Assembly: GCA_027324645.1 (NCBI GenBank)
Contig: DAHVSI010000137.1
Location: 1-33,177 of the forward strand
Reading direction: 5' to 3'
From: Castellaniella sp.
GTDB lineage: Bacteria > Pseudomonadota > Gammaproteobacteria > Burkholderiales > Burkholderiaceae_B
Length of the DNA: 33,177 nucleotides
In this document: one piece after another, positions 6,644 through 33,177 of the stretch
Layout: each line of letters begins with the position of its first letter
How positions within the stretch are numbered: position 1 is the stretch's first letter
Notes under the pieces: generated by a model
The model's input: only the letters and a program-made list of their open reading frames with translations
Told to the model about the DNA's origin: nothing
The model's database searches: none
Made by a program: the position numbers and the translations under genes

Positions 6644-6720
6644 TGGCTGGGGAAGAAGGATTCGAACCTTCGCATGCCGGAATCAAAATCCGGTGCCTTA
6701 ACCAACTTGGCTATTCCCCA
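6644..6720 (-). tRNA. tRNA-Gln (anticodon UUG), CCA encoded
   Basis: The minus strand folds into a complete cloverleaf. The acceptor arms TGGGGAA and TTCCCCA pair fully, the anticodon stem CCGGA/TCCGG closes a seven-base loop TTTTGAT whose bases 34-36 are TTG, and the T arm contains GGTTCGAATCC. A discriminator G and a genomically encoded CCA (complement of 6644-6646) close the 77-base gene. The mature 5' end is separated from the ispE stop codon by a single base, so the tRNA must be cut out of the same primary transcript by RNase P. This ispE-tRNA-Gln-prs order is familiar from Bordetella relatives. Confidence 0.97.
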
Positions 6721-30640: not shown

Positions 30641-31780
30641 TCAATCGGCACGCCCGCCATCTTCGCGTCCCAGGTGGGGCGGAGACAACCAGCCCGGACG
30701 TCGCCATGATACAAGACGACGATAGAGCCAGATATAGGCTGCAGCAAATACCAGCAGACTGGCGCTGAGTATCCAGGCACTGCCCCACCAGACGGTGGCG
30801 GGGACCAGACCGATAAGCGCCAATACCCACAGGTAGGGTGAAGTCATGGCGTTGCACAGTTCGGATTCGCCATCCGGCAGATCATGGCGCCAGGCCGCTC
30901 TGACCACACGGCGGAAAATGAGCTGATGCAAATGCAGTGCATCGGGCTGGTCCACAGGCGTACCTCGGATGACGCGGCGACGCCAGATAGAAAACAATGT
31001 CTCGAAGACCGGGTAGAACAGCACGGCCAAGGCGTAGACGGGCGAAACACCCGGATTGCGTACAACTAACTGCACGGCGAGCTGCGCCAGCATGAAGCCC
31101 AGAAAATACGCCCCCCCATCCCCAAGGAAGACACGCCCATAAGGAAAATTCCAGATAAGGAAACCAAGGGTGGCACACACCAGGGAGACCGCAATAAGAA
31201 AAATGGGCTGGTCCCCTACTTGCCAGGCAACCAGCGCAATAGAGGTGGCCATGAGGGTGGCGACCATGCCGGCCAGACCGTTCATGCCATCAACAATATT
31301 TAACGCATGAGTGCAGCCCCCGACGGCAACCATGCTGAAAACCAGGGACACTGGCCAGAAACCCAGCATCCAGTCGGCCCAGGGCATGCCCACGCGGGTC
31401 AGGCCGCCTAATAGCCACCAGGCGATGGCCGCAGAAATGAATGCGGCAATCAGCCGCTTGTCGGCACCAATGTCTTTGGTGATGTCTTCAAGCAGCCCGG
31501 CGGCAAACACCGGCAGGGCCGAAATAAACAATACCGGCCACAACCAGGTAAGCGTGAAATCACGCGGGCCTACGACCAGCAGTCCGGCCAGACTGCCGGC
31601 CACTACTGCCAGTCCGCCAACGCGCGGTGCTGCGCGGCTGTGCATGGCCTGAGGCTTGGACATATCGGTATCGCCAGTCACTTTGCTGTGCCATCGTTCG
31701 GAGACGACAATCAAGCCGCCCACCATAAAGGCCACGATTCCAATATAAAGCCAGCTGAAAGGCTCTGATAATTCAGGCAC
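30641..31780 (-). CDS. WecA/WbpL-like undecaprenyl-phosphate sugar-1-phosphate transferase
   Basis: A 379-residue polytopic inner-membrane protein of the MraY/WecA family that places the first sugar 1-phosphate on undecaprenyl phosphate. About ten hydrophobic segments alternate with the cytosolic motifs: PRVGGLAVV near residue 53, GLLEDITKDIG (metal-binding Asp), NIVDGMNGLAG near residue 163, FLGDGGAYFLG near 221 and the HIHR-like region HLHQLIFRR near 283. A GTG start at 31780 has AGGAG ten bases upstream. It is the first gene of the glycan operon, so this protein sets the first sugar (likely a HexNAc). The region in front contains a terminator at 31898-31930, so an extra promoter or read-through is needed. 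Confidence 0.92.
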   Translation of the reverse strand: MPELSEPFSWLYIGIVAFMVGGLIVVSERWHSKVTGDTDMSKPQAMHSRAAPRVGGLAVVAGSLAGLLVVGPRDFTLTWLWPVLFISALPVFAAGLLEDITKDIGADKRLIAAFISAAIAWWLLGGLTRVGMPWADWMLGFWPVSLVFSMVAVGGCTHALNIVDGMNGLAGMVATLMATSIALVAWQVGDQPIFLIAVSLVCATLGFLIWNFPYGRVFLGDGGAYFLGFMLAQLAVQLVVRNPGVSPVYALAVLFYPVFETLFSIWRRRVIRGTPVDQPDALHLHQLIFRRVVRAAWRHDLPDGESELCNAMTSPYLWVLALIGLVPATVWWGSAWILSASLLVFAAAYIWLYRRLVSWRRPGWLSPPHLGREDGGRAD

Positions 31781-31897
31781 TACGATAGAACTCCTGTTGG
31801 GTTGGGTCTAGACGCCCTATTATGACGAAAATTTGTAACAGCATTTAGACAGCCAGGGCTAAAGTTGCAACAATCAATGAGCCCAGCCGATTTTTCT

Positions 31898-31930
31898 AAA
31901 AAAAAAGCCCGAGATCCTAAGATCTCGGGC
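31898..31930 (-). terminator. Strong intrinsic terminator of the predicted small RNA
   Basis: GCCCGAGATC (31907-31916) and GATCTCGGGC (31921-31930) form a perfect ten-base stem with a four-base loop, followed on the minus strand by nine U (complement of 31898-31906). There is no T-run on the plus strand. It is the 3' end of RNA made from the promoters at 32052-32080 and/or 32168-32197. Confidence 0.93.
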
Positions 31931-32045
31931 CAAATCCACCAAAGGAGGAGGGTGGAGGAGACAACCTTGGCATGCCGGGCTACGAGGTTTACTAACCGAG
32001 CCCAAGGCTGCGTTGACTTGTTAGGCAACCTTTTTGGCATCCATT
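31898..32045 (-). ncRNA. Predicted structured small RNA with a CUCCUCC hairpin loop
   Basis: I see a promoter-to-terminator unit of about 148 bases with no good protein frame. From 5' to 3' it contains a stem region (GGTT/AACC at 31986-31997 inside GGGCT/AGCCC at 31977-32003, with CCTTGG/CCAAGG outside it), a hairpin TCCACC-loop-GGTGGA (31935-31956), and the terminator at 31907-31930. The middle hairpin holds CTCCTCCTTT in its loop, complementary to a strong ribosome-binding site; a second CTCCTCC lies just before it. It could instead be an untranslated leader of the glycan operon. A tiny frame (MDAKKVA) at its 5' end has no ribosome site and is probably not meaningful. Basis: seen structure; role inferred. 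Confidence 0.6.
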
Positions 32046-32051
32046 AACTAA

Positions 32052-32080
32052 AGTATACCTTTCTTTTTTGTGCAATGCAA
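32052..32080 (-). promoter_or_regulatory. Sigma70 promoter of the predicted small RNA (proximal)
   Basis: On the minus strand TTGCAT (32075-32080), a 17-base spacer and TATACT (32052-32057) predict a start near 32045. It is a strong candidate site, and a palindrome overlaps its -35 box. Confidence 0.65.
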
Positions 32081-32096
32081 GATAACTGCTATCTTG
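32078..32096. promoter_or_regulatory. Operator-like palindrome overlapping a -35 box
   Basis: CAAGATA (32078-32084), five bases and TATCTTG (32090-32096) are perfect arms. The left arm covers three bases of the -35 box at 32075-32080. A dimeric regulator bound here should control the small-RNA promoter; its identity is unknown. Confidence 0.5.
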
Positions 32097-32197: not shown

Positions 32198-32911
32198 TCA
32201 CCAGCGGTAAGCTGTCGCGGTCATGATCCGCGACATACCCCGCATGGCCATGCGTACGGGCAGAGGCAACTTGCTTGCTCCATGGTCCTCGGCTGTCGTG
32301 CGGTGCTCGATTTCATCATCGCGCATTTGCCCAACAATGGCTCTGGAACGGGCGTCAGCAGCTGGAAGGCGCTCAAGATGACCATCCAGGTGCTCTTCTA
32401 CCTGGCGCTCGGTTTCGGCCATGAAGCCCAAATTTGATGCTGTACCGGCACGACTGGCAAGTACGCCCAGAGAAAAGGAACCGGCATACCAAAGCGGATT
32501 GAACACGCTGGGGCGACTGGATAACTCATCAAGACGCTCGTGACACCAGACTAAATGGTCAACCTCTTCCACTGCCGCTTCCAGAAAGACATTACGAATT
32601 GCTGCATCGCGACAAAACAGGGCCTGCCCCCGGTACAAAGCCTGTGCACAGATTTCACCAACGTGATTGACGCGCATCAGTCCGGCAGCATGCCTGGACT
32701 GCGCCTCGGATAATGGCTCGTGGGCCGCAGACGCTGGGGCATCTTGCGCTGCATTGGCTGGGTTGGGACGCGAGGCGGGTATGGTTCCGCCAAGGACCTG
32801 CAGGGCGTGGCCGACTTCGGCCAGCAATGCATCGAGCCGGGATGTGCGGCGCAGGCTGCCAGGGCCGGAGTGTTGCTGTGGGGCGGAAGCAAAGGTGTCA
32901 GTGGTTGTCAT
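32198..32911 (-). CDS. coq7: Ubiquinone biosynthesis di-iron hydroxylase Coq7
   Basis: Coq7 (2-polyprenyl-3-methyl-6-methoxy-1,4-benzoquinone monooxygenase) adds the C6 hydroxyl in ubiquinone synthesis, the step done by UbiF in E. coli. The 237-residue protein (ATG at 32911, [13 protein letters not shown]) has an extended N-terminus and then the ferritin-like di-iron core: [27 protein letters not shown] (ExxH), [15 protein letters not shown] and [10 protein letters not shown] (second ExxH). All expected Glu and His ligands are seen. The frame is open to 33058, but the extra part overlaps the upstream membrane protein gene in another frame. A gap of 20 bases from that gene suggests co-transcription. 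A clear promoter for what follows begins right after its stop. Confidence 0.95.
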
Positions 32912-32931
32912 GCCGGTTTCTATTCCTGTAA

Positions 32932-33177
32932 TCAGTGTGACGCCAGGCCTGCATTGACACGCGCTTGCTGCGTCCGTGCTGCATGCAGGCGTACTTCGTG
33001 TATGGCCCAGATCGAGGGCAACACAATAGCCAGTATAACCAGCCCCCTGCCGGCCCACACCTGATCATCAAGCAAATAGAAATTGCATAAGCGTGCCGTG
33101 CTTTCCTGATACAGCATGCCCGCAATAGCGCTGGTCCAGCAAAAGCCTCCCACAAAAAACAGGCGGATGACGGCATG
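32932..33177 (-). CDS. Membrane protein of unknown function, N-terminus beyond the window
   Basis: The last 81 residues of a protein are seen; the frame is open to the window edge. Two likely membrane segments appear ([20 protein letters not shown] and [18 protein letters not shown]), with a short loop between that carries charged residues and ends [10 protein letters not shown]. The short C-terminal tail is basic ([19 protein letters not shown]). I do not recognise the family. It ends 20 bases before coq7 in the same direction, so the two are probably co-transcribed. The competing frame ending at 32898 overlaps the coq7 start and has little hydrophobic order, so I reject it. Confidence 0.7.

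Follow-up and report, generated by a model that had tools for sequence, protein, structure and literature searches.

A probable S17 ortholog in Castellaniella sp. with a putative PhaR operator at its promoter

The small RNA S17 of Bordetella pertussis is encoded next to coq7 on one side and a glycosyltransferase gene on the other, and the available portions of its description (PMC11722255) report a 190-nt transcript, S17L, which starts 7 bp after the -10 hexamer and from which RNase E cuts a stable, Hfq-bound RNA of 67 nt, S17S, with T as its first base. The same portions put the number of candidate targets at 91 in the Results and at 92 in the abstract, with 70 of the 91 matching single-stranded regions near the start, and report 32 transporter-related genes or operons. 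Repression at a ribosome-binding site was demonstrated, for BP2158 by way of compensatory mutations at Site 1; of four more candidates, two fell about two-fold and the other two did not respond.

Burkholderia cenocepacia has RNAs of the same Rfam family, RF02278: the double-hairpin RNAs ncS03, ncS05, ncS27 (bdhR1) and ncS62. In the excerpted reports (PMC4603805, PMC5688073), ncS03, ncS05 and ncS27 rise 8.0-fold, 6.9-fold and 4.3-fold in glucose medium; the same three rise by 2.6 to 3.9-fold when starved and by 2.9 to 9.7-fold in biofilm, and the authors describe the regulator of double-hairpin sRNA accumulation as yet unknown. A review of sRNAs of the Bcc, likewise available in part, assigns NcS27 a role upon nutrient deprivation.

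Two further groups of RNAs bear on the locus described here. The alphaproteobacterial ar14/cuckoo and CcsR RNAs carry anti-Shine-Dalgarno motifs in hairpin loops, and the CcsR RNAs are processed by RNase E. MmgR (RF00519) of Sinorhizobium meliloti is an alphaproteobacterial RNA which, according to the accessible parts of PMC12542648, acts on PHB accumulation and has a promoter bound by PhaR/AniA. PhaR is a PHB-sensing repressor which is sequestered by PHB granules. Its operator is given as YTKNTGCRNYGCANMAR in Ralstonia eutropha (PMC12849132) and as TG[N]TGC[N]3GCAA in Herbaspirillum (PMC3206438), each in the part of the paper at hand, and the S. meliloti phaP2 operator, which is bound efficiently, contains the 12 letters TTGCATTGCACA (PMC12542648, in part).

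The small RNA gene between coq7 and a glycosyltransferase gene

We analysed a stretch of 33,177 nt from Castellaniella sp., referred to as a whole as the window. Its minus strand carries the following features, given in the direction of transcription:

32198..33058 (-): coq7 (COQ7, PF03232 by Pfam), the upstream neighbour
32067..32083 (-): putative PhaR-type operator overlapping the -35, with TTGCATTGCACAA at 32068-32080; 15/17 positions of YTKNTGCRNYGCANMAR
32075..32080 (-): -35 hexamer TTGCAT, identical to the -35 of the mapped S17 promoter
32074-32058 (-): spacer of 17 nt between -35 and -10
32052..32057 (-): -10 hexamer TATACT, read in the sequence
32045 (-): predicted start, an A, 7 nt downstream of the -10
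31898..32045 (-): predicted primary transcript of 148 nt, the S17L counterpart, from promoter spacing and terminator
31898..31964 (-): predicted processed RNA of 67 nt, the S17S counterpart, from the T at 31964 and the RF02278 match
31954..31963 (-): Site 1, UGUCUCCUCC, anti-Shine-Dalgarno seed, single-stranded except for its last bases, which are in a stem; identical in 43/43 loci
31960-31954 (-): second CTCCTCC, read in the sequence
31935..31956 (-): hairpin TCCACC/GGTGGA, whose loop CTCCTCCTTT is Site 2, at 31941-31950
31907..31930 (-): intrinsic terminator stem-loop of 10 pairs
31898..31906 (-): nine-U tract, nine T in the DNA
30641..31780 (-): Glycos_transf_4 gene (PF00953 by Pfam), the downstream neighbour

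The original prediction, made from the letters, had described a TTGCAT-N17-TATACT promoter, a compact run of stem-loops, a hairpin TCCACC/GGTGGA whose loop displays CTCCTCCTTT, a second CTCCTCC next to it, and a ten-base terminator with nine U. All of these are present on the minus strand, the promoter at 32080-32052 and the terminator with its nine T at 31930-31898. The 148-nt RNA folds at -59.5 kcal/mol (z -4.37) and its last 66 nt at -29.3 kcal/mol (z -5.28), with 0/200 shuffles equally good in either case. The hairpin loop has CCUCCUUU in common with the 3' end of 16S rRNA.

The proposed Rfam search returned RF02278 (Betaproteobacteria toxic sRNA) at 31899-31963 on the minus strand, scoring 66.3 bits where 50 is the cut-off and covering all of the model (1-64 of 64). 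On this sequence evidence the feature is an RNA that is already known: the ortholog of Bordetella S17 and a member of RF02278. Genes with PF03232 and PF00953 flank it, the 27-nt conserved seed stands at the start of the predicted processed form, and the sigma70-type promoter has TTGCAT and a 17-nt spacer. As far as the excerpted S17 description goes, S17 shares the coq7/glycosyltransferase site, the TTGCAT -35, the 17-nt spacer, the CU-rich 27-nt seed, the nine-T terminator and the processed length of 67 nt (predicted here); the precursors differ, at a predicted 148 nt in the window and 190 nt for S17. If the RNA behaves as S17 does, its main band would be expected at ~67 nt, and the 148-nt RNA would be an unstable precursor. 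The named Bordetella loci contain 25 nt of the 27-nt seed region, and Bordetella hinzii (L145) has TTGCAT-17-TACTAT, the hexamers mapped for S17.

Three other elements were seen in the window. TTGACA-18-TATACT at 32197-32168 (-), matching 11/12 consensus positions and lying directly at the coq7 end, could give rise to a longer transcript that takes in the sRNA. A frame of 86 codons that opens with MPKR (31780-32040, minus strand) passes through the sRNA. A tRNA gene at 6647-6720 (-) is the only other Rfam match in the window above the gathering score. A plasmid location was rejected, the window being without a match in the plasmid collection.

The RF02278 model matches 139/151 genomes of the family and 41/43 genera, with a single match in 123/139; six of the 12 misses are genomes of 0.7-0.8 Mb from one genus. 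In the order, 128/200 genomes have a match at E <= 0.001 and 75/200 one above the cut-off. In the class the figures are 67/229 and 3/229, all three of the latter in the Burkholderiales order, and control genomes gave 0/14. The window's own genome (assembly 86% complete) has one copy, compared with four in B. cenocepacia, whose ncS03, ncS05, ncS27 and ncS62 are otherwise alike in RF02278 membership, two hairpins and CU-rich unpaired stretches, according to the excerpted reports. Neisseria NmsRb (RF02877) has a hairpin, CU-rich stretches and a terminator in the same order, and its model matches 31901-32007 with 40.9 bits, below its gathering score of 52; it differs in having tandem siblings and, in the source as available in part, TCA-cycle targets.

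Pairs of RF02278 copies separated by 377 to 580 bases, suggestive of tandem duplication, are found on G043 C14, G073 C4, G095 C2 and G115 C2 (two-copy loci L019, L029, L324, L325, L334 and L335), and genus g35 has 3 to 5 matches in each of six genomes.

Conservation was assessed in a one-per-genus set of 43 loci from 41 genera (40 other genera, the window's own genome and two congeners). Synteny is common, with coq7 upstream in 38/43 loci and a glycosyltransferase downstream in 30/43. The seed, 31963-31937, is nearly invariant: 26/27 positions are identical in 43/43 loci, and the remaining one in 42/43. That the loop should be conserved among relatives is likewise borne out across the family, where the 27-nt seed is exact in 133/139 genomes; the six variants differ in the loop or loop edge, one of them (G134) also in the first base. 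A further set of at least 120 named loci was selected by an exact 25-nt pattern and is uninformative on seed variation or frequency. L094, a contig of a Klebsiella pneumoniae-titled MAG with coq7 upstream of the sRNA seed, is probably from a misassigned bin.

The suggested covariation check, in an alignment of 20 sequences picked by us from the one-per-genus loci, supports the terminator and leaves the anti-Shine-Dalgarno hairpin without a signal. Six of ten terminator pairs are changed on both sides, a number reached by 28/500 shuffles, and the observed count of doubly changed cells in the terminator is reached by 0/500. The six pairs of the anti-Shine-Dalgarno hairpin are invariant in these sequences and give no covariation evidence, as expected if loop and stem sequence both pair with mRNA.

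An operator-like promoter box lost together with PhaR

Upstream of the RNA, 41/43 loci have TTGC[AG]N-N16-18-TANNNT at a distance of 30-165 nt, and in 41/41 of these a GCA half-site outside the -35 hexamer continues it. The TTGC part of the -35 was demanded by the promoter search, and the GCA half-site alone is independent there. Together they form TGCRNYGCA, which is found upstream in 43/43 loci where first-order shuffles predict 0.8; the longer box TGCRNYGCANMAR is found in 37/43 (0.12 expected), and a -10 follows the box at 16-18 nt in 42/43. In the window, TGCRNYGCA at 32067-32083 overlaps the -35, this stretch agrees at 15/17 positions with the R. eutropha consensus, and TTGCATTGCACA of the S. 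meliloti phaP2 operator is also present in the window box. Two other patterns proved not to be general: the palindrome AGGGT-N0-5-ACCY occurs in 3/43 loci (0.1 expected), and CCTAGGGTT-N-CCCTAGG in 0/43 loci and 1/139 genomes. At L009, the palindrome CCTAGGGTTTGCCCTAGG lies upstream of the sRNA near a second promoter-like site, a pattern found in 0/43 one-per-genus loci.

Elsewhere in the window's own genome, TTGCRNYGCAMNA has 29 matches and its reversed form 9. A mechanical test placed three box sites outside ORFs over 120 aa; they precede the window sRNA, a phasin gene (PF09361) and an rseP-like gene, the last named by eye. The box at this rseP-looking gene (L229, contig C129) is 31 nt upstream. 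Phasin loci from 16 genomes have the box in 15/17 cases, mostly twice or more, where 0.92 would be expected. The box was also sought within 300 nt in the 111 named loci listed that have at least 200 nt upstream: coq7-linked ones contain it in 68/69 (correctly spaced -10 in 61) and coq7-unlinked ones in 30/42 (22). It is absent at L062 (Ralstonia), L131 (Cupriavidus) and, unlike in the window, at two Burkholderia loci (L075 and L124).

The genome of the window encodes PhaR (PF07879, 105.2 bits, G000:C214), as do 137/151 genomes of the family. The sRNA and PhaR largely occur together: 136 genomes have both, 11 neither, 3 only the sRNA and 1 only PhaR, this last (G141) being 84% complete. The box was assessed at 137 of the 139 sRNA loci, leaving out G129, with 23 nt upstream, and the seed variant G134, where most of a box is seen by eye. 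It lies within 300 nt upstream in 133/134 PhaR-encoding genomes, and in 130 of these a -10 follows at the right spacing; by chance, a box would be expected within 300 nt in about 5 of 137. A narrower range of 25-170 nt gives it in 124/134, and widening to 300 nt recovered nine of the ten misses. The one PhaR-encoding exception, G124, has a box with one mismatch.

In the genomes which have the sRNA and lack PhaR (G057, G106 and G118, of three genera), the exact box is found in 0/3. The hypergeometric probability for box against PhaR is 1e-5, with relatedness ignored. G106 and G118 (the latter assembly 91% complete) keep TTGC and have lost the GCA half, while their seven PhaR-encoding congeners (three and four) have both. 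G057 has a one-mismatch relic of the box near -250, and its phasin gene is kept without a box. The operator-like box at the sRNA promoter and its joint loss with PhaR are what is new here at the sequence level, the RNA itself being known: our literature search found, among the papers listed, no printed link between PhaR and the RF02278/S17 RNA, the S17 preprint (PMC11722255) contains no word beginning PhaR, phasin, PHB or polyhydroxy, and PhaR is absent from the text of the Burkholderia sRNA paper and of the Bcc sRNA review.

A different regulator may bind the box, or the box may be a preferred -35 context, with PhaR uninvolved in either case. We regard this as unlikely, although it is the alternative with the most in its favour. 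The operator at the window locus is putative, TGCRNYGCA is found within 500 nt upstream of phaR itself in 0/11 genomes examined, and the S17 authors speculate, in the excerpts of PMC11722255, that an unnamed repressor tied to the Bvg mode acts on the S17 promoter. The distribution of the box speaks against another regulator: the exact box is missing from all three PhaR-less genomes and from 1/134 of those encoding PhaR, phasin loci carry an identical box, and its core is common to the published PhaR sites. A mere -35 preference would leave the GCA half-site to be explained, which lies beyond the hexamer and is present in 41/41 loci without having been demanded by the search.

Candidate targets and other accounts of the RNA

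Candidate targets were sought in nine family genomes as GGAGGAGAC, which is complementary to Site 1, followed by N1-9-ATG. After removal of the antisense strand of the sRNA we examined 41 distinct ORFs of at least 100 aa, four genomes being represented by the first 30 of 63 matches. Among the matches listed, periplasmic solute-binding proteins (TctC, DctP and ABC types) account for 23/41 of these ORFs and MFS transporters for 2/41. An independent Pfam count gives 22/40 scanned; the 23rd solute-binding protein (L431) comes from the TctC profile only, which was built from the target proteins themselves. By this profile, 15/40 target ORFs are of the TctC type, compared with 1/44 control ORFs with a GGAGG leader, which are largely from regions near coq7. 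In four genomes GGAGGAGAC had 23 matches and a permuted 9-mer 12, an uneven excess (14 vs 4 in one genome, 9 vs 8 in the other three); 3 of the 12 are ORFs of at least 100 aa, and none is a receptor by eye. The own genome has a single target ORF, an SBP_bac_8 receptor (L361), and 10/200 shuffled seeds pair equally well with it. As far as sequence matches can tell, solute-receptor targets agree with the transporter-related genes or operons reported for S17.

The name of RF02278 suggests a quite different function, that of a toxin which slows growth by sequestering Shine-Dalgarno sequences globally. The name was given for the E. coli toxicity of cloned Burkholderia members, and ncS27 overexpression attenuates growth (PMC4603805, PMC5688073, in part). 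S17S overexpression, by contrast, left exponential growth of E. coli unimpaired and had a modest adverse effect on its entry into stationary phase, and a strain deleted for S17 could be constructed and cultured (excerpts of PMC11722255). No antitoxin partner was noticed in our analysis. We consider toxicity as the function very improbable. Nor do we find a leader-encoded small protein at all probable. A frame of 32 residues in the leader is mentioned in the S17 description (PMC11722255, in part), and an ATG, often opening an MSKR-like sequence, lies within 22 nt of the predicted start in 37/42 assessed loci. We rejected this reading since the start is conserved while frame and stop are not: from the first ATG the frames extend over 1 to 139 codons, and many run through the seed.

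The original prediction had suggested that the RNA may be an equivalent, in Alcaligenaceae, of the cuckoo/CcsR stress RNAs; in one form of this reading, a sigma factor of heat shock or general stress would drive it. What did emerge, as RF02278/S17, is a small RNA gene that has a promoter, a terminator and an anti-Shine-Dalgarno loop of its own; the kinship and the stress trigger did not, and we hold them to be highly improbable. Both kinds of RNA have CU-rich anti-Shine-Dalgarno loops, and the ar14 model (RF02344) does match weakly, but its 19.4 bits are far under the cut-off of 58.8. The ar14/cuckoo RNAs carry CCUCCUCCC in the loop of each of three hairpins, whereas the window seed has CUCCUCCACC and CCCUCCUCCUUU and lacks exact CCUCCUCCC. 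CcsR1-4 share an operon with ccaF1 under an RpoH promoter, unlike the one copy in the coq7/glycosyltransferase gap, with its sigma70-type promoter and a single match in 123/139 genomes. Membership was rejected on these three grounds.

Least credible of all is that the element does no more than end or attenuate the coq7 transcript, or serve as leader to the glycan operon that follows: it does lie between two same-strand genes and could be fed by the second promoter at 32197-32168, but we rejected this since it has its own conserved promoter, S17 is a separate transcript (PMC11722255, in part), and the seed also occurs with no coq7 detected upstream in 51/120 named loci listed, 19 of the 51 having <1500 nt of upstream sequence.

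A proposed brake on solute uptake during carbon storage

The explanation which we favour, and consider probable as a whole, is that the window encodes an S17 ortholog which is processed, blocks ribosome-binding sites with Hfq, is repressed by PhaR and is released by PHB. The sigma70 promoter would make the 148-nt precursor, which RNase E would trim to a stable RNA of 67 nt with two hairpins. The two CU-rich stretches of this RNA, at its 5' end and in its first loop, would then base-pair with Shine-Dalgarno regions, chiefly those of periplasmic solute receptor and catabolic genes, and block translation together with Hfq. PhaR bound over the -35 would hold transcription of the sRNA down; in carbon surplus, PHB granules would titrate PhaR off the -35, and the RNA so released would brake further solute uptake. 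Processing, Hfq binding and repression at the ribosome-binding site were shown for S17 by others, and we infer by analogy that they are the same in Castellaniella sp.; PhaR presumably occupies the sRNA promoter, and PHB is presumably the signal.

Such a PhaR-controlled RNA has a precedent in MmgR (PMC12542648, in part), whose promoter is bound by PhaR/AniA; in the window the operator is putative. MmgR is not the same RNA, its covariance model reaching 17.0 bits against a cut-off of 41, and it differs in being alphaproteobacterial and in acting on PHB accumulation. A PhaR operator would tie the RNA to carbon storage, which fits the higher levels of ncS03, ncS05 and ncS27 in glucose medium. However, the induction of the Burkholderia relatives by starvation and in biofilm means that carbon surplus is at most part of the explanation there, and the role of NcS27 in nutrient deprivation, with the rise on starvation, is a poor fit with carbon surplus alone.

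For the family, we think it likely that the S17/RF02278 RNA of Alcaligenaceae and some other Burkholderiales is a riboregulator of the PhaR regulon, gated by PHB granules, which turns off solute uptake at ribosome-binding sites during carbon storage, a betaproteobacterial counterpart to the rhizobial PhaR-MmgR pair, with an operator that is lost where PhaR is. The conserved, putative PhaR operator would directly answer the question of the regulator raised by the S17 and the Burkholderia authors. If true, a small RNA would be under PhaR control in each of two classes of proteobacteria.
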